Positions 5,012-62,449 of a stretch of DNA of 64,000 bases are shown piece by piece. The position numbers and the translations under genes are program-made. The notes below the pieces were generated by a model. That model was not told the DNA's origin, searched no databases, and saw nothing but the letters and a program-made list of their open reading frames with translations. Positions within the stretch are counted from its first letter, which is position 1, and each line of letters starts with the position of its first letter. The DNA comes from Mariniflexile fucanivorans (GTDB taxonomy: Bacteria > Bacteroidota > Bacteroidia > Flavobacteriales > Flavobacteriaceae), in NCBI RefSeq assembly GCF_004341235.1, contig NZ_SLUP01000005.1:1-64000 (forward strand), given 5' to 3'.

Positions 5012-6398
5012 AACCTAAAATTTTAAGTAAGTCTTCACTTTTTTGTTGTTCACTAAATAATTCGGTTGTGATGTTTCCATCTGCATCCCTATCAATTAAA
5101 ATATGTTTTGGCATGGGTATTAAGCAGTGTTGTAAACCACCAAACCCGCCAATAGTTTCTTGGTAAGCACCTGTATTAAAGAAACCAATATATAATGGTT
5201 TTTCTTTATTGTATTTTGGCAAATAAATAGCGTTCATGTGCTGTTCACTATTATAATAATCGTCACTATCACAGGTTAAACCACCTAATAAAACGCGTTC
5301 GTAACTTTCGTACCACCTGTTAATGGGCAGCATAACGAAGCGTTTGTTTATAGCCCAAGTATCTGGTAAGGTTGTGATGAAAGATGAGTTAATCATATTC
5401 CACTTCTCACGATCATTTTGCTGCTTTTGGTATAAAACCTCATAAATTGCACCACCACTTTCACCTACTGTAAAACTTCCAAATTCTGTAAAAATATTTG
5501 GCACTTCAACTTCCTCTTCCTCACAAACCAATTTAATTTGATTCAAGATTTCATTAACCATGTATTCATAATCAAAATCGAAAGCCAATGAGTTTTTAAT
5601 AGGGAATCCGCCGCCAATATTCAAACTATCTAAAGTTGGGCATATACGTTTTAAGCTTGTGTAAACCTTTAAACATTTCGCCAACTCGTTCCAATAATAT
5701 GCATTATCGCGAATACCTGTATTGATGAAAAAGTGAAGCATTTTAAGCTTAATTTTTTTGTTTTCTTTAATCTGACTTCTGTAAAAAGGTAAAATATTTT
5801 TATAACCAATACCTAAACGTGAGGTATAAAACTCAAATTTCGGTTCTTCTTCCGAAGCAATTCTAATACCAATATTAAACTTTCCTTTTATTTCTTTTGA
5901 AAGCAAATCAATTTCCTCGTAATTGTCAATAATGGGGATACAGTTTTTGTGTCCGTTATTAATCAATCGCGCAATGTTAGAAATGTATTGATCCCTTTTA
6001 AAACCATTGCTAATCACATAAGTTTTATCGGTAATTTTACCTTCAGCTTTTAAGCTTTCAACAATATCAATATCAAAAGCAGACGATGTTTCAATATGTA
6101 TATCGTTCTTTAAAGCCTCATCAAGCACATGCTTAAAATGCGAACTTTTAGTACAGTAGCAATAACTATATTTACCTTTATATTTATTAGCTTTAATAGC
6201 TTTATCAAACCAACCTTTTGCCCTATTAATATTGTTCGATATTTGTGGTAAATACGTGAATTTTAAAGGTGCTCCATATTGTTCTACCAATCCCATAAGG
6301 TCAATGCCATGGAACTGTAAGTGTCTGTCTTTTAGATCAAATTCTTCTTGAGGAAAATAAAAAGATTGATTAATTAAATCAATGTATTTGGTATTCAT
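5001..6398 (-). CDS. speA: Arginine decarboxylase, short flavobacterial type
   Basis: 465 residues, a PLP-dependent fold III (alanine-racemase-like) decarboxylase. The PLP Lys is in 'YCYCTKSSHF' (about residue 84); the phosphate-binding 'NIGGGFPIKNS' and C-terminal 'GGLTCDSDDYYN' catalytic Cys/Asp region are intact, as are 'FTEFGSFTVGESGG' and 'GFFNTGAYQETIGGFGG'. It is shorter than the ~650-residue enterobacterial SpeA but matches the flavobacterial form. It should make agmatine from arginine. First gene of a six-gene operon that also holds an agmatinase homologue with a damaged active site and a DHS-like enzyme, so the step from agmatine to putrescine needs explaining. Confidence 0.85.
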   Translation of the reverse strand: MNTKYIDLINQSFYFPQEEFDLKDRHLQFHGIDLMGLVEQYGAPLKFTYLPQISNNINRAKGWFDKAIKANKYKGKYSYCYCTKSSHFKHVLDEALKNDIHIETSSAFDIDIVESLKAEGKITDKTYVISNGFKRDQYISNIARLINNGHKNCIPIIDNYEEIDLLSKEIKGKFNIGIRIASEEEPKFEFYTSRLGIGYKNILPFYRSQIKENKKIKLKMLHFFINTGIRDNAYYWNELAKCLKVYTSLKRICPTLDSLNIGGGFPIKNSLAFDFDYEYMVNEILNQIKLVCEEEEVEVPNIFTEFGSFTVGESGGAIYEVLYQKQQNDREKWNMINSSFITTLPDTWAINKRFVMLPINRWYESYERVLLGGLTCDSDDYYNSEQHMNAIYLPKYNKEKPLYIGFFNTGAYQETIGGFGGLQHCLIPMPKHILIDRDADGNITTELFSEQQKSEDLLKILGYDK

Positions 6399-7082
6399 TC
6401 TTTATTTTTAGATGTAATAGTTTCATATTATTTTTTTAAAGTTAAGAAACATTCGTTTCTATACAAATTATATTTACTATTAATCAAATTCGGATGGGAC
6501 TTTGTGTAGTTGCAACAAAGCCATATATATGCTGGCTACCAGCAATAGTATAAGCAGAAGTTAGCTCTAAAATTCGGTTACTTTTTCTATAAGCTGCTTT
6601 TGAAAATAACTTCTTAAATTTCAAAAACCCGAACATATAAACACGTCTCAATTTGTTCAGCAATTACATTACAAATGAAATATAAAAAATTTAATTATAA
6701 AGTAATTTAGATTTTTTTTTTAGTTTTTTTTTGAAATGGATTTTGGGCGTTACCCACAAGGGGTCGGGCTTTACGTTTCAAGTCCTCGCTCCTGCGTCGC
6801 TGTGGGCTTTCCACTGCAATCCCTAACGCGGATATGCCGTAAAACAAGTTAGCTTTTAGCAAAAGTGATATATAGAAAATATAGCGTGTTTTTTTACAGA
6901 AAATAATTTTATATTTACGGGATAATGGTAGCAATAAACTTAGTGTATTTTGGCTTATTTATGGATATTAGTAAGGTTTGTATATCAAGAGATGGCAAAC
7001 ATTTGACAGCACTATGTATAGGAATAATATTAATTCTTTATTATTTAAGTAATTTCAAATTTCACAACTAAAAAGATGAGTC
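6399..7082. other. 684-bp spacer between divergent genes, with repeat-like segments
   Basis: AT-rich and without a convincing gene. It should hold the speA promoter on its left side. A GC-richer island at ~6745-6831 is bounded by GCGTTA and TAACGC (separate entry). AGTTAGCT occurs at 6559 and again at 6847 as a direct repeat 288 bp apart. A 75-codon minus-strand frame crosses the island, but it is Lys/Arg-rich and looks like chance. Confidence 0.5.
6745..6831. repeat. Structured intergenic element bounded by GCGTTA / TAACGC
   Basis: GCGTTA (6747-6752) and TAACGC (6824-6829) form an inverted pair about 80 bp apart, enclosing a GC-rich interior with two GGGCTTT copies. The wording of the sequence resembles intergenic elements I have seen repeated in flavobacterial genomes. 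The ends recall integron attC core sites but are in the opposite orientation, so a cassette site is not shown. Confidence 0.4.
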
Positions 7083-7496
7083 ATGAGAGAAGGTGATAAA
7101 CCTAGAGCGGTACCCGATATGTTACATCAAGTAATATTTCATCCAGATATTAAAATGGCTCAGATATCTTATGACACACTTTATATTAATCTACAATCAA
7201 CAAAAATTAATCTGACTCCTGATTTTCAAGTATTAGAGTGGAGTTCGCAAACGTTTTACAGACTTGATAAAAGGAAAGTTGTTCTAATTATGAGTGATAA
7301 TGACATACCGAAATTTATGGAAGGTCACAACAACATCGAAATAGCAAGTAGAACTAGATTAACCTTACATTATCGAACAGCTAAATTCCGATCTTCCAAC
7401 TGGGTGATTTTTGCAACAATAACGGATATATTTAGAGTTAGAAAAGGCGTAGATTTAACTGAACCAAGATTTAAAATGGAAAAAATTAAATTTTAG
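7083..7496 (+). CDS. Hypothetical protein
   Basis: 137 residues, no signal peptide or membrane segment, mixed alpha/beta composition with a basic C-terminus. I recognise no family. It begins just after the repeat-bearing spacer and is the first of three same-strand small genes of unknown origin (7083-8565); 35 bases separate it from the next. The frame is long for this base composition and followed by close neighbours, so it is probably real, but it could be a recent acquisition. Confidence 0.5.
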   Translation: MREGDKPRAVPDMLHQVIFHPDIKMAQISYDTLYINLQSTKINLTPDFQVLEWSSQTFYRLDKRKVVLIMSDNDIPKFMEGHNNIEIASRTRLTLHYRTAKFRSSNWVIFATITDIFRVRKGVDLTEPRFKMEKIKF

Positions 7497-17898: not shown

Positions 17899-19464
17899 TT
17901 ATGAACTACACGACAACATAGAACAACCTACTTTATGGCGTGCCCAATCGGGACGTTTGGCAAACCATTTTTCATGTTCTGGCTGCTCATTATACGGGTT
18001 TTTTAGCAATTGAAATAAGTCGTCAATTAACTTATAATTACCTTTATCGGCATCATCGATCGCTAATTGTGCCATATAATTTCGCAACACATACTTGGGG
18101 TTCACCAAATTCATTTTTTCTTTTCTTTCTTCAGAAGTTACTTCTTCTCGAGATAGACGTTCAGCATACTTTTCAAACCAAGTATTCCATTTTTGTTGAA
18201 TGTCTTCCGTTATTTCTTCTGAAATGTAAAAAGCATCTTTAACAACTTTTATACCTTCGGAAGCTTTTTCATTATTGAAATCGCTTAATTTCCGAAAGAA
18301 AATAGTCATATCCGTTTCCGTTAGCAATAAATTATTTTCCAAATCTTTAATTAAAGCTACATCCGAATCATCTTTAATTAACAATCCCAATTTTGAACGC
18401 ATCATCTCTAAAAATTTCACTTCAAAACCTGTTTTGTATTCATCTAAAATAGCCTCAAGCCCATCTGTTTCTTCAATTAATGGATACAAAGCGTTTGCTA
18501 ATTTATACAAATTCCACAATCCTATATTTGGTTGATTGCCGTAACGGTAGCGTTTATGTTGGCGATCGGTCGTGTTGGGTGTCCAGCCATAATCGAAACC
18601 CTCCAACCAGCCATACGGACCATAATCGATGGTTAGACCAAGAATAGACATATTATCGGTATTCATAACACCATGCACAAAACCCACGCGTTGCCAGTGG
18701 ATAATCATATCCAAAGTGCGTTGGGAAACTTCACTAAAAAACGCCAAATAGGTTTCTTTTGAAGGCTCTCCTAAATGAGGGAAAAAATGTTTAACCGTAT
18801 AATCTACCAAAATTTTTAATGTACTAAAATCTTGTCGGGCAGCTAAAATCTCATAATTACCAAAACGCAAAAATGATGGTGCTACTCTACAAACAATGGC
18901 TCCTTTTTCGTATTCTGGATTTCCATTATACAATACATCACGCAACACTTGGTCGCCAGACAATGCCAACGATAAAGCTCTGGTTGTTGGAACGCCTAAA
19001 TAATACATGGCTTCGCTACATAAATACTCACGTATAGACGAGCGCAATACCGCAAACCCATCGGCAGTTCTGGAATACGGTGTTGCTCCTGCTCCTTTTA
19101 ATTGAAGTGCCCAACGCTTATTTTTATGTGTAACTTCGGCTAAATTTATAGCACGGCCATCGCCCAATTGTCCTGCCCAATTCCCAAATTGATGGCCGCC
19201 ATAACACATGGCATAGGGTTTTGTATTTGGCAACAGTGTATTTCCTGTAAAAATTTTTAAAAAAATATCGCTTTGCGAATCTTCTTTAGAAAGCCCCAAA
19301 TTTTCAATCATTTCGGGAGATACATGAAGTAATTCTGGCTTTGAAGTTCTTTTAGGATGTACATATGAAAAACAGGCCTTTTCAACCTGCCTTCTTGAAT
19401 TTTCCAGAATAGGATCTGCTGGTAATTCTTTATTAAATGTATCCTTTATGTTTAAGTTTATCAT
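17899..19464 (-). CDS. selO: SelO/YdiU pseudokinase-fold AMPylase
   Basis: 521 residues, full length for SelO. Diagnostic stretches: 'MCYGGHQFGNWAGQLGDGRA', 'LQLKGAGATPYSRTADGFAVLRSSIREYL', 'VMNTDNMSILGLTIDYGPYGWLEGFD'. SelO transfers AMP to Ser/Thr/Tyr of target proteins and protects against oxidative stress (family knowledge). The C-terminus 'MLSCSS' has Cys where some relatives have selenocysteine. Overlaps msrA by 4 bases, linking it to methionine-sulfoxide repair. Confidence 0.9.
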   Translation of the reverse strand: MINLNIKDTFNKELPADPILENSRRQVEKACFSYVHPKRTSKPELLHVSPEMIENLGLSKEDSQSDIFLKIFTGNTLLPNTKPYAMCYGGHQFGNWAGQLGDGRAINLAEVTHKNKRWALQLKGAGATPYSRTADGFAVLRSSIREYLCSEAMYYLGVPTTRALSLALSGDQVLRDVLYNGNPEYEKGAIVCRVAPSFLRFGNYEILAARQDFSTLKILVDYTVKHFFPHLGEPSKETYLAFFSEVSQRTLDMIIHWQRVGFVHGVMNTDNMSILGLTIDYGPYGWLEGFDYGWTPNTTDRQHKRYRYGNQPNIGLWNLYKLANALYPLIEETDGLEAILDEYKTGFEVKFLEMMRSKLGLLIKDDSDVALIKDLENNLLLTETDMTIFFRKLSDFNNEKASEGIKVVKDAFYISEEITEDIQQKWNTWFEKYAERLSREEVTSEERKEKMNLVNPKYVLRNYMAQLAIDDADKGNYKLIDDLFQLLKNPYNEQPEHEKWFAKRPDWARHKVGCSMLSCSS

Positions 19465-20000
19465 TTTAATCTATCTCCGTACAATTTTCTAAGTTTTGCC
19501 AATTTCGGCGTAATTACAAAACTACAATACCCTTGTTCCTTGTTATTTCTATAATAATCTTGATGATAGTCTTCCGCTTTGTAAAATGTTGCTAATGGAC
19601 TAATCTCGGTTACAATAGGGTTATCGTAATATGCTGCTACTTTTTTTACAACTGCTTCGGCTATTTTTTTTTGATTTTCATCATGAAAATAAATTACCGA
19701 ACGGTATTGCGTACCTACATCGCCTCCTTGCTTGTTTAAAGTTGTAGGATCGTGTGTGGTCATGAAAATAACTAAGATATCTTCATAGGAAATAACATCG
19801 ACATCGAAAGTAATTAGAATAACTTCAGCATGTCCTGTTAATCCAGAACAGATTTCTCGATACGTGGGATGCCCTGGAACATTACCTCCAGAATAACCCG
19901 ACTCCACTTTCTCAACCCCTTTTACTTCTTGAAACACTGCTTCGGTGCACCAAAAACAGCCGCCACCCAATGTGGCTAATTCTAATTTTTTATTTATCAT
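19461..20000 (-). CDS. msrA: Peptide-methionine (S)-S-oxide reductase
   Basis: 179 residues, canonical MsrA: 'GGGCFWCTEAVFQEVKGV' with the catalytic Cys, 'GLTGHAEVILITFD' with the Glu, and 'HDPTTLNKQGGDVGTQYRSVIY'. Reduces S-epimers of methionine sulfoxide in proteins. Its ATG overlaps the msrB stop by one base, so translation is coupled. Confidence 0.95.
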   Translation of the reverse strand: MINKKLELATLGGGCFWCTEAVFQEVKGVEKVESGYSGGNVPGHPTYREICSGLTGHAEVILITFDVDVISYEDILVIFMTTHDPTTLNKQGGDVGTQYRSVIYFHDENQKKIAEAVVKKVAAYYDNPIVTEISPLATFYKAEDYHQDYYRNNKEQGYCSFVITPKLAKLRKLYGDRLK

Positions 20001-37981: not shown

Positions 37982-39019
37982 TTAATTTGATAATACCTCA
38001 GACTTCAACGATGATTTTCTAACAATTAATTCAGGAGTCAAAACAACTTGCTTCTGTGTCTTTATTTTTTTACCGTTGCCTACTTCTTCTAAAAAAACTT
38101 GAGCAGTTATTCTTCCCATTTCTACTGGTGACTGATCTACCGATGTTATTGAGAGTTCCATAAAACGTGTAAATGGTTCATTACTAAATCCAATAACACT
38201 TATATCATTTGGTATTTTAAGACCTTGTTCTTTAATTTCTTCTATAGCTCCCAGCGCAGTAAAATCACTAGATGAAAAAATAGCGTCTGGAGGGTTATCC
38301 ATAGCCAAAAGAATTTTAGTAGTTTTTCTACCTTCTAATACTTTACTCATTGTTTCTATTACCAAGCTTTCATCAAACTCCAGACCATTATCAATAATAG
38401 CTTGTCTGTAGCCTAAATACCTGTTTTTAAAAATTAATATTTCGCGGTTGTTTGATAAATGTGCAATACGTTTACATCCTTGATTTATTAAATGCTGGGT
38501 AGCATCATAGCCCCCTTTAAAGTCATCAATAGTTACTGAACTTACACCCGGAATGTCTTTTTTTCTATCAAAAAAGATTAAGGGAACTCGTTTGTTTAAC
38601 AGTTTATGAAAATGCTCTGTTGTTTCTAATTTTGCGTTTGATATAGACATTAATATCCCATCAACCTGTGCGTTTAATAACGAATTTATATTTGCGATTT
38701 CTAAATCTTCTTGGTCATGCGTTTGACAAATAATAACATGGTAGCCTTTTGGATATAATTCTTCTTCAATACCACGAATTACCGATGCAAAAAAGTTACT
38801 ATCTATACGAGGTACAATAACACCCACATTATAACTTTTACCACTTTTAAGTGCTAGAGCAAGTGTATTTTGCTCGTAATTCATCTCTTTAGCGGTATCG
38901 TTAACTAGCTTGCGTGTAGCTTCGCTAATTTTAGGATTATTATTTAAAGCTCTTGAAACTGTAGCGGCAGTAATTTCTAGCTTTTTAGCAATATCGTAAA
39001 TAGTTGTTTTTTTTTCCAT
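37982..39019 (-). CDS. LacI-family regulator, candidate regulator of the pectin locus
   Basis: 345 residues from the ATG at 39019, which begins 'MEKKTTIYDIAKKLEITAATVSRALNNNPKISEATRKLV', a complete LacI HTH; the six residues of the longer frame are not family sequence. 'NVGVIVPRIDSNFFASVIRGIEEEL' and 'DISVIGFSNEPFTRFMELSITSVDQSPVEMGRITAQVF' show the sensor core. The GTAATCGATTAC palindromes in this locus have LacI-type symmetry and this is the only LacI gene within the locus, so it is the best candidate binder (inference). Confidence 0.85.
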   Translation of the reverse strand: MEKKTTIYDIAKKLEITAATVSRALNNNPKISEATRKLVNDTAKEMNYEQNTLALALKSGKSYNVGVIVPRIDSNFFASVIRGIEEELYPKGYHVIICQTHDQEDLEIANINSLLNAQVDGILMSISNAKLETTEHFHKLLNKRVPLIFFDRKKDIPGVSSVTIDDFKGGYDATQHLINQGCKRIAHLSNNREILIFKNRYLGYRQAIIDNGLEFDESLVIETMSKVLEGRKTTKILLAMDNPPDAIFSSSDFTALGAIEEIKEQGLKIPNDISVIGFSNEPFTRFMELSITSVDQSPVEMGRITAQVFLEEVGNGKKIKTQKQVVLTPELIVRKSSLKSEVLSN

Positions 39020-39094
39020 AATGATTACAAACACCAAAAGTATTATAATTTGCTAAAATTAAGCGTTTATGTGTTAAATAATTAATTAATTGAA

Positions 39095-54566: not shown

Positions 54567-57500
54567 ATGAAAAAACTTTCTTTTTTATTAATGATTCCCC
54601 TATTGCTGTTTTCAGTTATAGTAAAAGGACAAACGACAACCTCTTATGACTTGAGAGATGGATCTACTTTTAATAATAGCAATCCAATTACCCAAACAAC
54701 TAGTCCAGATGGTAAACTAAGAACACAGGCGGCAACTACACAATACCACAGTACGGGTTATGGTGTTGTATTCAAAAACAATAACTCGCTAGAAGTTGAT
54801 GTTGCTGAAGGAAAAAATACCATTCGTTTTTATGGTTCTGTATATAGCGCAGGAACCATGAACGGAGGCTCAACCCTTGGGGGTAATGACTTAGGCAGCC
54901 AAAATGTATTGGTGGCAATTGATAAAACAGGCTATTATGAATTTACTTATACTGGTGGTGCCATTACATTATATTTCACTTTTATTGGTGCTAACGCATA
55001 TACACCCATCATTGATGTAACCCATGAGATGGTTTTAATAACTAAGACGGATGTTTGGGATTTTGGGGCACAACAATTAGATCCCGTGTTATATAATAAT
55101 ATGTTAACAGAGTCTGTTATAAACTCATTTTATACATATACTACACCTCAAATACCAGGACAATCGGGGAGAAATCTTCCTTCGTTTACAGCTGGCGATT
55201 TTGGTTATGTTACTAATAGTACAACTAGTGATAGACTTAGAACATCGAATTTAAATGTTACCAGATGGGATGAAAACATTGCAAGTTCTACAAAATTTAC
55301 TGGTAGATTGTATGTGAATTCTGGAGGTAATGTAAATAGATATTTAACCTTGAATTTAAATGAAGATGATGAAGTTACTCTTGAAACAAGAACAGATGGT
55401 GGTGGAATATATCATTTTAAATATGTAGCAGATCCTTTGGCACAAACAGATATAATAGAGGTACCCGCTGCTGAAACTACTGTTAAATTGGTTGCAAAAT
55501 CTGCAGGACTCTATCATATAACAGATGTTGTTGGAAAACCAAGCTACTTTAGAGTTTATAGAAAGGCAGCACAATATGTATCATTAACTGGGAATGTTAA
55601 TGAAACCAATGCTCCTGGTATTCCTTCTGGATATTCAATTAATTTTACTAATGAAGCTGGCAAAACTTGGTCTGCAGTAGTATCTAGTGGCACATATACT
55701 ATCAATTTACCTGTAGAATATACCTATACAGTAAGTTTAGGAGATGCTAACGGTTATGTTATTGCAAGTGCCTTAACTTTGAATGCAACAGAGACTACTA
55801 CAAATTTTGATGTTACTGTTCTTCAAGTTGATTTATTCACGGTTAGTGGAAATATTACAGGATTATCCGATCTTTCAAACCTAGTATTAAGTTATACACC
55901 AGATCCCCTTGCTAATAAAATTTACAACCCTATTGTTTCAATAAACACTGGAGCTTCAACCTATTCTGTAGATTTAGAAGCTAATGTGGAATATACAATT
56001 TCCGCACAAGGTGTTAATGATTACGAGATTTTAGCAAATACTATTACTATAACTGGTGCTCAATCTGCCGATATTAACTTTACCCCAAAACCTGTATATA
56101 ATGTAACAATAAACACACCTGATTTAAATGCAACCCAGAAAAGCAAATTGAGTTTGACTTTTAAAAATTTAAACGAAACTGGCTATTCTTACAATTTCAC
56201 TGATGCTAATGCGGTAGTTTTAAGAGATGGTGCTTACAGTGTAAGTTATAGTGGATTGGATGAATACGCTATTGAAATGGCATTAACTTCCAACTTGACT
56301 ATAGCTGGTTCAAACACTTCAAAAGATTTGGCATTTAAACCAATTACAGAATGGGTTTTTAAAGATAGAAGTATCACCGCAGCTACGGCTTACAAGGGAC
56401 TTTTATTTACAGGAAGTGTGAATGTAAGAGGCCTATCGAATGGAGATTTACTTGCTAGCTCTGGGGCTACTATTTCTATTCCCGTGCAGGTAGGTGATAA
56501 ATTATTGATAACTGATTATTACCAATCTAACTATTCCATTGATGGTGGAGCAACAATTAACAACACCTCAAATAGCACAAGCACCAGAATAACAACTAAA
56601 TATGTATATCCAGGTGTATCTGACGGTATGGTAACTTTAACTACAGGAGGTTCATCATATTTTGTGTCTATTAAAGTTTTACAAATAGTCCCTTATTCTG
56701 CTACTATTACAGTTGGTACTGGTAAAGACTATCAAACAATTAATGAAGCATTGAATGCTATCTCAAGAATGGATCGCCCAAGTAATGAACGAGTTACTGT
56801 ATTGATAGATCCGGGCAATTACGAAGAAATGCTCGTAATTAGCAGTCCAAATGTTACTTTAAAAAATGCAGCTTCATCGCCAAGTATTGCGCTTTTAAAT
56901 AAAGGTATTGATATTGATGCAAATGCTGTAAGGATTACTTCTTATTATGGTCAAAAGTATAACTTCTTTAGCCAAGGAACCGATAATAAATGGCATGCCG
57001 ATGTGTTAGCTGTTAACACGGCAAATGGTTATACTGAATATGTGAACCAAGAAGGAACTGGTGGTGGTTCTTCATACTGGAATGCTACGGTAGTTGTAGA
57101 ATCAACTGGATTTACTGCTGAAGATATTATATTGGAAAACTCATTTAATCAATATATTTCTTTGAAAGAATCACAAGACGAGGTACAACCTAAAGGAGGT
57201 GACCCTATAAGACCAACAAATTATGGTAATATATCCGTTCAAGATCGTTCTGCTGGTTATGTTACACAAGCTGCGGCTATAGGAATTGCTGCTTCTGCAG
57301 ATAAGGTAGTTCTAAACAATTGTCGTGTTATTGGTCGTCAAGATTCTTTTTATGGTGCTGCTCCAGCAAGAGTTGTGATTTATAAAGGCGCTGTGATGGG
57401 TGCTGTTGATTATCTATTTGGAGCTATGAATGCTGTATTCTATAAAACAGATTTAGTTTTAAATACGAGTGATTCAAATAGTGATGTTGCCTATATTACG

Positions 57501-58160
57501 GCGGCGCAACAAAGTAGCGGCAGAGGTTATTTAATGTATCAGTGTCATGTAAAATCACCTGTCCCTGGTATTGAAACAGCTTCCATTAATGGGTCTAAAC
57601 CAGGCTATTTTGGGCGTCCTTGGAGCCCAAATACTAGTGAAGTGGTATTTTTTGAAACAACCATTGATGCATCAACTTATCCAGATAATGTTGGTCAGTC
57701 TTTAATAGTCCCTGTTGGCTGGAATAACACATTGGGAGGCACATCTCCTTATATGTATGAACGCAGTACTATGGAACTTTCTGGAGAAAATAATTCAGCA
57801 AGTCGTGCTGCTTGGTCTACAATACTTTCGCAAGATCAATTAACAGATGGTACGCCCATAACAACCTTCAATTTCACTAAAGGAAATGATAATTGGGATC
57901 CTATTGCAGAATTAAACAGTTTGAGTGTTGATGATATTATTAAAACATCCTCAAAAGTAAATTTAGCGGCGTATGGTGGTAAAGTTTATATTTCAAATGT
58001 AAAATCAAATACTCAAATTAATATCTATAATATTACAGGAGCTTTGGTTAAATCTATAGCAACAAAAAACGATACTAACTTCGATTTTATAAACGGTCTA
58101 TTTATTGTAAAAATTAAAGATGCCGATGGAAAAAAGACAGTTAAATTAATAGCTCACTAG
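54567..58160 (+). CDS. Large multidomain CE8 pectinesterase, secreted by T9SS
   Basis: 1197 residues. Signal peptide (~1-22). Residues ~25-340 hold two related beta-sandwich modules ('SYDLRDGSTFNNSN' and 'VWDFGAQQLDP' starts); ~345-590 three Ig/FN3-like repeats; ~590-705 another beta module; ~711-1110 the pectinesterase beta-helix with 'GRQDSFYG' (D926), 'GAVDYLFGAMNAV' (likely nucleophile D948) and 'YFGRPWSPN'. The last ~70 residues ('VYISNVKSNTQINIYNITGALVKSI') form a T9SS sorting domain almost identical in plan to that of the next gene. Removes methyl esters from pectin outside the cell. Confidence 0.88.
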   Translation: MKKLSFLLMIPLLLFSVIVKGQTTTSYDLRDGSTFNNSNPITQTTSPDGKLRTQAATTQYHSTGYGVVFKNNNSLEVDVAEGKNTIRFYGSVYSAGTMNGGSTLGGNDLGSQNVLVAIDKTGYYEFTYTGGAITLYFTFIGANAYTPIIDVTHEMVLITKTDVWDFGAQQLDPVLYNNMLTESVINSFYTYTTPQIPGQSGRNLPSFTAGDFGYVTNSTTSDRLRTSNLNVTRWDENIASSTKFTGRLYVNSGGNVNRYLTLNLNEDDEVTLETRTDGGGIYHFKYVADPLAQTDIIEVPAAETTVKLVAKSAGLYHITDVVGKPSYFRVYRKAAQYVSLTGNVNETNAPGIPSGYSINFTNEAGKTWSAVVSSGTYTINLPVEYTYTVSLGDANGYVIASALTLNATETTTNFDVTVLQVDLFTVSGNITGLSDLSNLVLSYTPDPLANKIYNPIVSINTGASTYSVDLEANVEYTISAQGVNDYEILANTITITGAQSADINFTPKPVYNVTINTPDLNATQKSKLSLTFKNLNETGYSYNFTDANAVVLRDGAYSVSYSGLDEYAIEMALTSNLTIAGSNTSKDLAFKPITEWVFKDRSITAATAYKGLLFTGSVNVRGLSNGDLLASSGATISIPVQVGDKLLITDYYQSNYSIDGGATINNTSNSTSTRITTKYVYPGVSDGMVTLTTGGSSYFVSIKVLQIVPYSATITVGTGKDYQTINEALNAISRMDRPSNERVTVLIDPGNYEEMLVISSPNVTLKNAASSPSIALLNKGIDIDANAVRITSYYGQKYNFFSQGTDNKWHADVLAVNTANGYTEYVNQEGTGGGSSYWNATVVVESTGFTAEDIILENSFNQYISLKESQDEVQPKGGDPIRPTNYGNISVQDRSAGYVTQAAAIGIAASADKVVLNNCRVIGRQDSFYGAAPARVVIYKGAVMGAVDYLFGAMNAVFYKTDLVLNTSDSNSDVAYITAAQQSSGRGYLMYQCHVKSPVPGIETASINGSKPGYFGRPWSPNTSEVVFFETTIDASTYPDNVGQSLIVPVGWNNTLGGTSPYMYERSTMELSGENNSASRAAWSTILSQDQLTDGTPITTFNFTKGNDNWDPIAELNSLSVDDIIKTSSKVNLAAYGGKVYISNVKSNTQINIYNITGALVKSIATKNDTNFDFINGLFIVKIKDADGKKTVKLIAH

Positions 58161-58338: not shown

Positions 58339-59148
58339 ATGAAACAAAAATTACTTTATTTTATTTTAACCGTTTTGTTTTTTACGGCGAACTTACAGGC
58401 CCAAGATAAGATTTGGGACTTTGCTAACCCATCGGCAAATTGGCCGTTAAATTTCGCTGGTGCATCTACACCAACAATAATCGACAATTTAGCACTAGTC
58501 CCCGGTAGTGGAATTACTAATTTAGGTCAGATTGATGGAAATAATACATCTTGGACTGATGGTTTTACAGGCTCGCAAAGAATAAAACAAAATGGAGCTG
58601 GTGTAGATACCGGAATCATACCTGAAACGGACATGGTCTTTATTCCAACCAAACGTCATATGTATTTTGCCGTTAATGGAGCGTGTACAGTAAAAATATG
58701 GTTTAGAGGTGGTGGCACAAGTGCTCGTACACTTTATGTAACTGATGGTTCTGCAGTAGTTGGTAAATTCACAACGGCTAATACGGATCAACAGATTGAG
58801 ACATTTAACTATTCAGGAGGTGCAGCAAATTTATATATATTTGGTGTTGACAATGCTTTTAATTTATATAAAATGGAAGTGTCCCCTGCCAGTGCTCTCA
58901 ATACAACTACTCTTGGTTTAGGTTCTAAAGTCTCGGCTGTTTCAACTAATTTACAAGCAATCGGCAACAGAATTTTTGTTTCAAACGTTAAGACAAGCTC
59001 AGAAGTGAATATTTACAGTATTACAGGAGCATTAGTAAAATCATTCAAAACAAATAGTGATATAGATTTTGCTTTCAAAACTGGGTTGTTTATTGCTACA
59101 ATTAAAACTTCAGAGGGTCAAAAAGTAGTTAAACTATTAACCAATTAA
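58339..59148 (+). CDS. T9SS-secreted protein with a beta-sandwich domain, possible carbohydrate-binding protein
   Basis: 269 residues. Signal peptide ending 'TANLQAQ|D', one beta-sandwich-like domain (~22-185, beginning 'KIWDFANPSANWPL', with 'HMYFAVNGACTVKIWFRGGG' and 'TLYVTDGSAVV'), then a T9SS sorting domain ('IFVSNVKTSSEVNIYSITGALVKSF') that is a close paralogue of that of the preceding gene. No catalytic motif seen. The domain resembles accessory modules of flavobacterial pectate lyases; a free-standing pectin-binding protein is my inference. Confidence 0.65.
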   Translation: MKQKLLYFILTVLFFTANLQAQDKIWDFANPSANWPLNFAGASTPTIIDNLALVPGSGITNLGQIDGNNTSWTDGFTGSQRIKQNGAGVDTGIIPETDMVFIPTKRHMYFAVNGACTVKIWFRGGGTSARTLYVTDGSAVVGKFTTANTDQQIETFNYSGGAANLYIFGVDNAFNLYKMEVSPASALNTTTLGLGSKVSAVSTNLQAIGNRIFVSNVKTSSEVNIYSITGALVKSFKTNSDIDFAFKTGLFIATIKTSEGQKVVKLLTN

Positions 59149-59220: not shown

Positions 59221-59661
59221 ATGAGAAAACAAAAAGGTTGTTTATTATTATCATTAATTTTAGTGTCGTTAGCCCATGGTCAAGAAATAAAAGAGGTTTT
59301 AAATGATTCTATAAAAAATTACACCATACAAAATTGTGTTAATCAATTTAATATAGAACAAGCTATACCTACCAAAGTGGGTTACCAATATTGGTTTGCT
59401 GATAAAGATTTTATTGATGGAAGAACTCTTAAATTAAGTGTTGTAGTACCTCATCAATCTACCCACGCTCCACACAAACATATTGAAGATGAATTCTTTT
59501 TTGTTTTAGAAGGTACTGCAGAATTTTTTCTAGATGGCAAAACCCAAACAGCAGGTCCTTATACCAGTTTTTATTGTCCGTCTAACTCAATGCACGGCAT
59601 TAGTAATGTTGGAGATACCGAACTTAAGTATTTGGTGATTAAAAAATATAAGATAGATTAA
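59221..59661 (+). CDS. Secreted cupin-domain protein
   Basis: 146 residues; signal peptide '...LVSLAHGQ|E'. One cupin barrel: motif 1 'HAPHKHIEDEFFFVLEGTAEFFLDG' (His, His, Glu) and motif 2 'YCPSNSMHGISNVG' (His). KdgF, which speeds opening of unsaturated uronates to 5-keto-4-deoxyuronate, is a single-domain cupin found in such loci; this one is periplasmic and may do the same (inference). 21 bases before the PL10 gene. Confidence 0.7.
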   Translation: MRKQKGCLLLSLILVSLAHGQEIKEVLNDSIKNYTIQNCVNQFNIEQAIPTKVGYQYWFADKDFIDGRTLKLSVVVPHQSTHAPHKHIEDEFFFVLEGTAEFFLDGKTQTAGPYTSFYCPSNSMHGISNVGDTELKYLVIKKYKID

Positions 59662-59682: not shown

Positions 59683-60792
59683 ATGAATTATTTAAAAAGA
59701 AATATAATTACGCTATTTAGTATTTGTGCCATAACTATAAGCATTCAAGCACAAATTCTTGATAAATCTTGGAAAGAAATAACCGAAATGGATGAAGGTA
59801 CTTGGTTTGCTTCACAAGAAGCAAAAGATATAGCTGAAAATGTATTGCTTTACCAACATAATATTGGTGGTTGGGAAAAAAATATTCAAATGCAAAATCC
59901 TTTAAGTGCCGAAGAAAAAGAAAAATTAAATAAAGAAAAAAGTAATACAGATCATGTTACTACGGACAATGGCGCAACATATCAAGAAATGGTTTTTCTT
60001 TCAAAAATGTACAGACAAGTACCAGACGAAAGATACAAGAAAGCATTTCTGGCGGGGTTAGATTATGTTCTGGAAGCACAATATGATAATGGTGGTTGGC
60101 CTCAATTTTATCCATTAAGAAAAGGCTACTATACACACATTACTTATAATGACGATTCTATGGTGAATATCCTGAATATTCTTAAGGAAATAAAAGATAA
60201 ATCGGATTACTTTTCAATAAAACCTTCATCTGAAACCATAGAAAGAGTTACGAAAGCTTTTAACAAAGGCATTGATTGTATTATTAATACCCAATATAAA
60301 CAAAATGGCGTATTAACAAGTTGGTGCGCGCAACATGACGAAAATACGTTGTTACCTGCTAAAGCTCGTGCTTATGAATTACCTTCATTAAGCGGTAAAG
60401 AATCTGCTAAAATAGTATTGTTACTCATGGAAATTGAAAACCCTTCCAAAAAAGTTATTAATGCTGTAAATCGTGCTTATAATTGGTTTCAAAAAGTAAA
60501 AATAACTGGATTGAGAGAGGAACGTATTTTCAACGAATCTGGAAAAATAATTGATAAAAAAATGATACCAGATGCTGATGCCCCACCCCTTTGGGCACGT
60601 TTTATGAATTTGGAAGATAACAAACCTTTTTTCTGCGATAGAGATGGTATCAAAAAGTCTACTTTAGAAGAAATTGGAGCAGAACGCAGGAATGGCTATG
60701 CTTGGTACACTAATCAACCAAAAGAGGTGTTAAAAAAATATCCTAGATGGAAAGAGAAATATGATAATTCGCTTTCCGAAAAAAAAAAGTAA
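59683..60792 (+). CDS. pelA: PL10 pectate lyase
   Basis: 369 residues; signal peptide '...ISIQAQ|I'. (alpha/alpha)3-barrel PL10 motifs: 'DHVTTDNGATYQEMVFL', 'YDNGGWPQFYPLRKGYYTHITYNDDSMV', 'LTSWCAQHDENTLLPAKARAYELPSLSGKES', 'DADAPPLWARF'. Cleaves polygalacturonate by beta-elimination. It ends 'SEKKK' at a run of ten A's: the last codons read A AAA AAG TAA. The next gene lies in the -1 frame and is open back to this run, so a PL10-CE8 fusion may be made by frameshifting. Confidence 0.92.
   Translation: MNYLKRNIITLFSICAITISIQAQILDKSWKEITEMDEGTWFASQEAKDIAENVLLYQHNIGGWEKNIQMQNPLSAEEKEKLNKEKSNTDHVTTDNGATYQEMVFLSKMYRQVPDERYKKAFLAGLDYVLEAQYDNGGWPQFYPLRKGYYTHITYNDDSMVNILNILKEIKDKSDYFSIKPSSETIERVTKAFNKGIDCIINTQYKQNGVLTSWCAQHDENTLLPAKARAYELPSLSGKESAKIVLLLMEIENPSKKVINAVNRAYNWFQKVKITGLREERIFNESGKIIDKKMIPDADAPPLWARFMNLEDNKPFFCDRDGIKKSTLEEIGAERRNGYAWYTNQPKEVLKKYPRWKEKYDNSLSEKKK
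60780..60792 (+). promoter_or_regulatory. Candidate -1 frameshift site A AAA AAG before the PL10 stop
   Basis: A run of ten A's (60779-60788) plus G and the stop TAA (60790-60792). In the PL10 frame it reads A AAA AAG, the dnaX-type slippery heptamer. A -1 shift reads on as 'KVKSPKDDYNMLVSKDG' into the CE8 gene with no stop. Transcript slippage adding one A would give the same product. Confidence 0.5.
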
Positions 60793-60815
60793 AGTCGCCA
60801 AAGGATGATTATAAC

Positions 60816-61700
60816 ATGCTAGTTTCAAAAGATGGAACTGGTGATTTCACAACAATTCAAGAAGCCATAAATGCCTCAAAAGCGTTTCCCTATCAACGTG
60901 TTCTTATTCATATAAAAAATGGTGTTTATAATGAAAAAGTACATGTTTACTCCTGGAACACGCACATTTCATTAATTGGAGAAAGTAAAGAAAACACGAT
61001 TATTACTTTTGATGACTATTTTGATAAAATTGATTTAGGACGAAATAGCACCTTTCACACCTCTACCCTATTAGTTGAAGGCAATAATTTTATTGCTAAA
61101 AACTTAACTGTTCAAAACACCTCTGGTACTGTTGGACAAGCCATCGCGTTATCGGCAAACGCGGACAAATGCTATTTTGATAATTGTTCGTTTTTAGGCT
61201 TTCAAGATACTCTTTACACATCAGGCGAAGGTTTTAAGCAATACTTTAAAAATTGTTTTATTGAAGGAAGTACCGATTTTATCTTTGGTGAAGCGACCGT
61301 TTTGTTTGAAAATTGTGAAATTCGTAGTAAAACCAATTCGTACATTACAGCAGCTTCAACTCCTAAAACCCAAGATTTTGGGTATGTTTTTAAGAACTGT
61401 AAACTAACTGCCGATGAAAATGTTTCCGAAGTTTATTTAGGAAGACCCTGGCGCATGTATGCTAAAACCGTATTCATAGAATGCAAGATGGGCAAACATA
61501 TAAAACCGGAAGGTTGGCACAACTGGTCTAATAAAGAAGCCGAAACCAATACATTTTATGCTGAATTTAATTGCAGCGATGAAGGATACAAACCTGAAAG
61601 TAGAGTTAATTGGTCTCATCAATTAAAAAAATCTCAAGCAAAAAAATACACCATAGATAATATTCTTAAATCAAACACAAAATGGTATCAAAATCTGTAA
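60816..61700 (+). CDS. CE8 pectinesterase domain, no signal peptide of its own
   Basis: 294 residues from the ATG. Almost pure CE8 beta-helix: 'LVSKDGTGDFTTIQEAINA' at the very start, 'GFQDTLYTSG' (D131), 'GSTDFIFGEATVLFEN' (likely nucleophile D154), 'YLGRPWRMYAKTVF'. No export signal, although pectin is extracellular. The frame is open upstream of the ATG into the A run ending the PL10 gene, so the exported form is probably the second half of a PL10-CE8 protein (inference); otherwise a frameshift mutation or sequence error split the gene. Confidence 0.85.
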   Translation: MLVSKDGTGDFTTIQEAINASKAFPYQRVLIHIKNGVYNEKVHVYSWNTHISLIGESKENTIITFDDYFDKIDLGRNSTFHTSTLLVEGNNFIAKNLTVQNTSGTVGQAIALSANADKCYFDNCSFLGFQDTLYTSGEGFKQYFKNCFIEGSTDFIFGEATVLFENCEIRSKTNSYITAASTPKTQDFGYVFKNCKLTADENVSEVYLGRPWRMYAKTVFIECKMGKHIKPEGWHNWSNKEAETNTFYAEFNCSDEGYKPESRVNWSHQLKKSQAKKYTIDNILKSNTKWYQNL

Positions 61701-61705
61701 TTAAA

Positions 61706-62449
61706 ATGAAAAATATAATCAAAATTAAATTCGTAATTCTTTTATTAGTGACTTCTAGTTGTATGGCTCAACAAAGCACCATTTACATGATTGGCGACTC
61801 CACAATGGCGAATAAAAAAAACCCTGAAACCAACCCAGAACATGGTTGGGGGCAAGTTTTACCTGAATTTTTTAATAAACAAATAAAAATAGATAACAGA
61901 GCTGTAAATGGCAGAAGCAGCAGAAGTTTTATTGTTGAAAAACGATGGGATTCTATATATAATACATTAAAAAAAGGTGATTACGTTTTTATTCAATTTG
62001 GTCATAACGATCAAAAAATTAACGACCCGAAACGCTATGCCAACCCGCATACAGCATATCGGAATAATTTAGTTCGTTTTGTATTGGAAACTCGCGAAAA
62101 AGGCGCTACTCCTATTTTGTTTTCATCTATAGTTAGACGAAATTTTAATGAAGAAGGTACTTTAGTTGATACACATGGTGAATATCCATTGGAAGTGCGG
62201 TTAGTTGCAAATGAGTATCAAGTATCTTTTATTGATTTACAATACCAAACCGAACTACTTGAAGAAACCTATGGTGTTGAGAATTCAAAAAAACTACATT
62301 TACATTTTGAATCTGGCGAAAACCCGTATTACAAAGAAGCGAAACATGATGATACCCATTTATCAAGATTAGGAGCCACAGAAATATCTAAACTTGCCGT
62401 CAGTCAATTAAAAAAACAAGTGCCTAGCTTAATTAAATTCATCCTTTAA
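61706..62449 (+). CDS. Rhamnogalacturonan acetylesterase-type SGNH hydrolase (CE12)
   Basis: 247 residues from the ATG at 61706, which starts the signal peptide ('...VTSSCMAQ|Q'; the Cys may also form a lipobox); an ATG at 61682 overlaps the CE8 gene. SGNH blocks: 'YMIGDSTMANK' (Ser), 'AVNGRSSRSF' (Gly/Asn), 'FIQFGHNDQK' (Asn), 'HDDTHLSRLGA' (Asp, His). Removes acetyl groups from rhamnogalacturonan. Confidence 0.87.
   Translation: MKNIIKIKFVILLLVTSSCMAQQSTIYMIGDSTMANKKNPETNPEHGWGQVLPEFFNKQIKIDNRAVNGRSSRSFIVEKRWDSIYNTLKKGDYVFIQFGHNDQKINDPKRYANPHTAYRNNLVRFVLETREKGATPILFSSIVRRNFNEEGTLVDTHGEYPLEVRLVANEYQVSFIDLQYQTELLEETYGVENSKKLHLHFESGENPYYKEAKHDDTHLSRLGATEISKLAVSQLKKQVPSLIKFIL

Follow-up and report, generated by a model that had tools for sequence, protein, structure and literature searches.

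The first 64,000 nucleotides of contig NZ_SLUP01000005.1 of Mariniflexile fucanivorans (hereafter the window) contain adjacent coding regions for a PL10 pectate lyase and a CE8 pectin methylesterase that meet at a run of ten adenines (A10), with the esterase in the -1 frame relative to the lyase. We propose, with a probability of roughly 0.7, that RNA polymerase slips productively at this run during transcription, so that the locus would give both a lyase and a lyase-esterase fusion. In most transcripts RNA polymerase would copy the run faithfully and the ribosome would stop right past it, releasing a complete, exported PL10 lyase; in some, one extra A would bring the ribosome into the CE8 frame and so yield a PL10-CE8 fusion carrying the export signal of the lyase. 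In relatives whose reading frame is continuous across nine or ten A's (A9-A10), an extra A would usually bring an immediate stop and hence free lyase. Making both products might allow lyase and esterase to act on methylated pectin in a set ratio. That slippage occurs, and at a rate that leaves most transcripts unslipped, is what we infer from comparing related sequences.

The A10 run lies in the linker between two enzyme domains

The PL10 frame ends in TCC GAA AAA AAA AAG TAA. An initial annotation of the window, made from its letters alone, had described ten A's read as an in-frame A AAA AAG directly before the stop, a -1 frame open from the run into CE8, and a CE8 domain that starts close to its ATG without an export signal; our reading of the locus agrees on each of these points (Table 1), the signal being judged by eye. 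The whole Pec_lyase model PF09492 (1-292 of 292) is matched by residues 58-350 of the 369-residue lyase, so that the domain is complete before the run. Solved PL10 structures also match (1r76, query 39-358; 1gxm, query 50-348); no match extends beyond residue 358, so translation without slippage should give the lyase in full. Solved pectinesterase structures match the CE8 region, as does the Pectinesterase model PF01095 (positions 2-297 of 298). If the -1 frame is translated from 60783, this domain begins at residue 12, encoded by the ATG at 60816. These two boundaries place the A10 run within a linker. The predicted structure of the closest fused relative, L003, has five segments with a predicted local distance difference test score (pLDDT) below 50, one of which, residues 364-370, is the site of the run. 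By eye, the CE8 sequence of the window contains QDTLY, DFIFG and LGRPW, which we take to be CE8 active-site motifs.

At the place of the ATG at 60816, intact fusions have a methionine that belongs to the domain (YNMVVAK in M. gromovii). Counted on both strands, over coding and non-coding sequence, the window has 8 overlapping A9 matches versus 26.7 expected from shuffles; A9 runs are therefore scarce in it, and the A10 run falls where the two enzyme domains meet.

Split genes are found only at runs of nine or ten A's

The initial annotation had suggested sorting homologues into those that are fused, split with the run, or split without it, and in this comparison the 178 CE8 loci kept comprise 107 fused, 23 split and 48 without an adjacent PL10, and every split locus carries A9 or A10. 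The loci were collected from named genomes (80 kept of 244), from relatives (9 of 60), from the family (44 of 397), from the genus of genome G255 (2 of 7) and from the genus of G344 (117 of 398), which is Flavobacterium as judged by the identity of several loci with named ones. Before counting we dropped loci with CE8 identity below 55% and 14 duplicates, each of which matched another locus exactly across the 400 bases compared. A PL10 gene was counted as adjacent if it lay on the same strand within 400 bases; otherwise the locus was placed among the 48. The resulting 130 distinct PL10-CE8 loci belong to the Flavobacteriales, mostly Flavobacterium. L003 (G003, from the genus of the window) is identical to L028 of Mariniflexile gromovii over the 400 bases compared.

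One locus, L149/L251 (G709, a single-contig genome), has a second PL10 frame break at a T run within the lyase domain, besides its A10 linker run. L149 was left out of the Fisher, triple-lysine, early-stop, T-ending-codon, heptamer and A-run-scarcity counts and kept in the start-codon count (n = 23); in ratios of nonsynonymous to synonymous differences per site (pN/pS) it was included for CE8, and L043 and L149 were excluded for PL10.

The linker run is A9 in 8 of the 23 split loci and A10 in the other 15; L047 of Flavobacterium sandaracinum is one of the split loci, and L193 has A10 in a fused gene. Among the 107 fused loci, the longest linker run is 4-8 A's in 71 and 9-10 in 36, so that 23 of 59 loci with A9-A10 are split as compared with 0 of 71 with shorter runs (Fisher test, 1.6e-9, with relatedness ignored). 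At the run, CE8 is in the -1 frame relative to PL10 in 23/23 split loci; L149 is +1 overall owing to its second break but -1 at the run itself, and the +1 phase at the run was seen in 0/130 loci. One added A would thus bring the two frames together in every split locus.

The position of the run within the linker varies. It is at the linker end in the window and in three Lutibacter loci, at a W-KKK motif in a seven-species Flavobacterium clade, and at SEKKK in a six-species clade. On a quick, weakly supported CE8 tree, the split or fused state changes at least 8 times.

The esterase of split genes appears to be maintained

The split groups are strongly diverged (mean proportion of synonymous differences, pS, 0.46-0.62), and the six- and seven-species clades retain A10 or A9 exactly at mean pS of 0.51 and 0.61. 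In these two clades pN/pS is 0.09 and 0.20 for CE8, and 0.10 and 0.19 for PL10. Across all split groups it ranges from 0.09 to 0.26 for CE8 and from 0.10 to 0.23 for PL10, and the CE8 of three fused control groups gives 0.08-0.13. As judged from these ratios, the CE8 of split groups is under purifying selection and is as constrained as the neighbouring lyase.

In 18 of the 23 split loci, the CE8 frame has no ATG, GTG or TTG before the domain. In those 18, no whole esterase domain can be started without a shift of frame, because no start codon precedes it. The proposal of the initial annotation that one locus could make a free lyase and a fusion, the latter being the only exported esterase of the gene pair, is supported by this comparative evidence.

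Runs of nine or more A's are scarce within the lyase and esterase genes

Outside the linkers, the lyase and esterase bodies of 129 loci (246 kb) contain 5 runs of A9 or longer versus 40.5 expected. Runs of A8 are mildly reduced (48 versus 86.3), and runs of A6-A7 are not avoided (1117 versus 1034.4). Of 45 Lys-Lys-Lys triplets in gene bodies, 1 is written entirely with AAA, as compared with 39 of 56 in linkers. The bodies contain 295 in-frame copies of A_AAA_AAR, spread over 121/129 loci. Because runs of nine or more are scarce, runs of six or seven are not, and the heptamer is common, a run length near nine is what matters, rather than the heptamer.

Published work offers a yardstick. Baranov et al. 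(2005, PMC1088944) look for transcriptional slippage where a run of at least nine A or T falls in the overlap of two frames and where such runs are under-represented in the other coding sequence of the organism. Here the overlap holds A10 in the window and A9 or A10 in 23/23 split loci, and the under-representation was found within the lyase and esterase bodies of the 129 loci and within the window. According to the same source, nine is also the length at which a sizeable fraction of bacterial genomes show evident avoidance of runs. When RNA polymerase of E. coli or Buchnera inserts bases, it mostly adds one at a time, in homopolymer runs (PMC5574713), with which the proposed +1 direction agrees; that study found no case of a restored reading frame.

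Continuous genes with long runs tend to have a stop in the shifted frame

In fused loci with A9-A10, the frame entered after one added A (+1A) stops no more than one codon past the run in 28 of 36, and the frame entered after one lost A (-1A) does so in 2 of 36. With shorter linker runs, such early stops follow +1A in 5 of 71 loci and -1A in 15 of 71, and at runs of 4-9 A's in gene bodies they follow +1A in 0-8% and -1A in 10-22%. When the codons after the run were resampled synonymously (300 trials), early stops averaged 19.4/36 and reached at most 24. With A9-A10, the codon after the run is itself followed by an AAN codon in 20 cases, and in 18 of these it ends in T and so creates TAA once the frame has shifted, versus 9.6-9.7 expected (p about 5e-6 to 3e-5 with species treated as independent); in loci with shorter runs, a T-ending codon precedes AAN in 4 of 18. 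Among loci fetched after the idea had formed, early stops were found in 2/2 with A10 and 0/10 with shorter runs, both of the A10 linkers resembling linkers already in the sample. The stop directly after the run in fused A9-A10 genes seems selected.

It is conceivable, in our estimate at slightly under even odds, that the linker run is a two-way slippage device that would yield free lyase and fusion in either DNA phase, continuous genes slipping into an immediate stop and split genes slipping into the fusion. Were it so, gain or loss of one or two A's would only flip which product is in the majority, providing polysaccharide-degrading enzymes with a ratio switch that evolves easily. Slippage that yields a truncated product is hard to judge comparatively, according to Baranov et al. 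(PMC1088944), and the early stops that an added A brings into frame in fused genes offer a comparative signal for it.

Weighing the alternatives

A number of observations weigh against our interpretation. The CE8 tree is weak, with 26 of 127 inner branches starred, and it provides only 4 supported pairs for split state versus run length (3.2 agree, 0 disagree). Within its genus the window alone is split, with fused genes in G001, G002 and G003, no PL10 next to the best CE8 of G005, and no match in G004; one genome of the species of the window was examined. Because only the window is split among the genomes searched and its closest fused relative, L003, has A8 at the same site, the split state may be young in this genus, where it rests on one assembly of 29 contigs. 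The later-fetched set of 12 distinct fused loci contained no split locus (0/12). In 2 of 5 split groups the CE8 pN/pS (0.20, 0.26) exceeds that of the fused controls, with PL10 there about equally high. As to the early stops, a single inferred gain of the run covers 32 of the 36 fused A9-A10 loci, among them 25 of the 28 with an early stop; 3 of six single-tip gains have an early stop; and a tree-corrected test over 12 supported pairs (mean of 5.4 agree, 0 disagree, median p 0.0625) is suggestive only. It is because most early-stop loci descend from that one gain that the two-way device is given lower odds. Selection for the run itself in fused linkers was tested for and not found, as 36 runs of A9 or longer were seen versus 36.3 expected from codon use and peptide; the run there may thus be tolerated rather than selected. 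Finally, a ribosomal -1 shift would yield identical products.

The match between run frequency and synonymous expectation, and the single gain behind most early stops, would also suit an explanation in which the linker merely tolerates A runs, slippage is noise, and the splits are near-neutral accidents rescued by polymerase errors. This shares its mechanism with the productive slippage that we favour and differs in the why, so that its odds are not exclusive of ours; we consider it somewhat unlikely, as immediate stops in the +1A frame and T-ending codons exceed synonymous expectation and as the splits are unchanged across long divergence in two clades. A change of machine rather than of purpose is implied by the ribosomal -1 shift that the initial annotation had put first. 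In E. coli dnaX, such a shift takes place at an in-frame A AAA AAG with an upstream Shine-Dalgarno (SD)-like word and a downstream stable stem-loop. The window has the same heptamer in frame, A AAA AAA is in frame in 22/22 split loci, and the -1 direction fits. Unlike in dnaX, however, A AAA AAG is not conserved, occurring in 8 of 22 split loci, and four SD-like words sought in the 22 bases before the run were absent from the window, with one present in 4 of 23 split loci. Single-sequence folds of the 60 downstream bases gave z = -1.83 for the window and a value below -2 in 1 of 23 loci, the others scattering around zero; as far as such folds can show, no stem-loop is consistent across the split loci. 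Six or seven A's would moreover suffice for a ribosomal slip, yet splits are found only at nine or ten, and the in-frame heptamer is common in gene bodies. For these reasons the dnaX-like shift did not hold up as the main mechanism and is in our view unlikely, and transcript slippage, the second option of the initial annotation, fits best. The avoidance of A9 and longer but not of A6-A7, the restriction of splits to nine or ten, and the lack of a consistent SD-like word or, in single-sequence folds, stem-loop favour RNA polymerase over the ribosome as the probable slipping machine.

A sequencing or assembly error in the run, the gene being in reality one continuous fusion, is very unlikely. 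Homopolymers are error-prone, the assembly is in 29 contigs and the closest relative is fused, but the window differs from the A8 of that relative by two A's and not one, and the same layout is found in 22 other strongly diverged loci, including those of the single-contig genomes G709 and G751. The 15 A10 split loci would also require A11 originals, and there is no fused A11 among the 107; this argument fails for the 8 A9 split loci, because fused A10 loci exist. The remark of the initial annotation that an error would look alike thus remains apt for this one genome but leaves the recurrence in the family unexplained, and its expectation that 9 or 11 A's would each give a continuous frame is right for one number only, since by codon count CE8 would still be out of phase with 9. 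If instead the length of the DNA run varied within the population, switching between fusion and lyase only, relatives should differ in length and phase, as do fused A8 L003 and the A10 window, or fused A10 L138 and split A9 L042. We regard such phase variation as quite improbable in place of transcriptional slippage, beside which it can act, given that the six- and seven-species split clades hold identical run lengths and that free length change would produce the +1 phase, which no locus shows. Least plausible, to the point of being hard to credit, is that CE8 is translated alone from the ATG at 60816 or is a decaying remnant. That ATG is close behind the lyase stop, but no export signal follows it, its methionine is a domain residue in fusions, and most split loci have no start at all; against decay stand the purifying selection on split-group CE8 and the end branch of the window on the CE8 tree, 0.13 as compared with 0.26 for fused L003.

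Comparison with known recoded genes

Genes with poly-A slippage are known. In tssM1 of Citrobacter rodentium, an A11 run before the stop slips (PMC4256274). The PL10-CE8 layout resembles it in that the run is right before the stop and extra A's would restore the frame, so that one gene yields proteins of two lengths, short and full; it differs in that tssM1 encodes a secretion-system membrane protein, whereas here two enzyme domains would be joined or not, in many species, by slippage that is predicted. Fused A9-A10 loci would, like dnaX of Thermus thermophilus with its A9 (PMC1088944, PMC5009743), slip to a near stop and a shorter protein; unlike that replication protein, the PL10-CE8 family also has the mirror layout in which slippage would lead to the longer protein. 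The alpha-L-fucosidase of Saccharolobus solfataricus is likewise a recoded sugar-degrading enzyme, with a -1 frameshift ascribed to the ribosome (PMC8037382), but it is archaeal and a single interrupted enzyme rather than a choice of one versus two domains. The 107 intact Flavobacteriales fusions have the same domains in the same order as the window, which differs by the split at the linker run. What would be new here is a carbohydrate-active enzyme pair with several origins of the split and two mirrored layouts within a single family.

A literature search for slippage with pectate lyase returned no match, and no paper on transcriptional slippage in polysaccharide utilisation in Bacteroidota was found by title among the matches listed. 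The words pectate, pectin, esterase and lyase are absent from the main text of Antonov et al. 2013 (PMC3711429), as are pectate and pectin from the part of a 2016 review considered (PMC5009743). Passages on Mariniflexile litorale report PL10 and CE8 abundance and do not mention a PL10-CE8 fusion (PMC11278836). Split PL10-CE8 genes are probably annotated as frameshifted or split. If slippage occurs as proposed, dozens of Flavobacteriales loci would make two pectin-degrading products from one gene, and the family would exemplify transcriptional slippage in the polysaccharide utilisation of Bacteroidota.

Gene neighbourhood and other long runs

Pectin-related genes span 54.5-62.4 kb of the window, and the neighbours of the PL10-CE8 pair are listed in Table 1. 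The proteins at 54567-58160 and 58339-59148 have similar C-terminal tails (VKLIAH, VKLLTN), presumably akin to type IX secretion tails; by eye, PL10 and CE8 have no such tail.

Table 1. Features of the PL10-CE8 locus and its surroundings in the window
Feature	Position	Strand	Basis or remark
PL10 pectate lyase open reading frame (ORF), 369 aa, unslipped product	59683..60792	+	Pfam PF09492, E 6.9e-110
Putative signal peptide of PL10, MNYLKRNIITLFSICAITISIQAQ	59683..59754	+	by eye from translation
A10 run in the interdomain linker, proposed slippage site	60779..60788	+	ten A's, then G at 60789
A AAA AAG heptamer, in PL10 frame	60783..60789	+	frame reading
TAA stop of the unslipped PL10 frame	60790..60792	+	frame reading
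CE8 pectin methylesterase frame, at -1 to PL10, without a stop through the run	60768..61700 (stop ends at 61700)	+	PF01095, E 1.8e-77
ATG, the only ATG/GTG/TTG of the CE8 frame ahead of the DGxGD anchor	60816..60818	+	23 bases after the stop
Cupin-domain gene, pectin-locus neighbour	59221..59661	+	PF07883
GDSL-type esterase, next gene, overlapping the CE8 end	61682..62449	+	PF13472
Large protein with a second, distant CE8-like domain	54567..58160	+	ORF list and Pfam

The initial annotation had held that relatives in which CE8 has its own signal peptide and no slippery run would speak against its proposal. A hydrophobic N-terminus was indeed found, by a crude test, in 46 of the 48 CE8 loci without an adjacent PL10, but these have a different architecture. 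Among stand-alone esterases, L252 (G575) divides a signal-peptide-like ORF and the CE8 domain between two frames, the domain lying at -1 and the two overlapping at an A9; only through a slip there would an exported form of that esterase arise. In L176 (G579), a CE8 without adjacent PL10 has an in-frame A9 in its N-terminal linker.

Elsewhere in the window, where such runs are otherwise few, A9 is found on the coding strand of two minus-strand ORFs, at 19664-19672 in ORF 19461-20000 and at 39007-39015 in ORF 37982-39037. A T10 and a T9 lie two bases apart at 6712-6732, between an ORF ending at 6398 and one starting at 7083.
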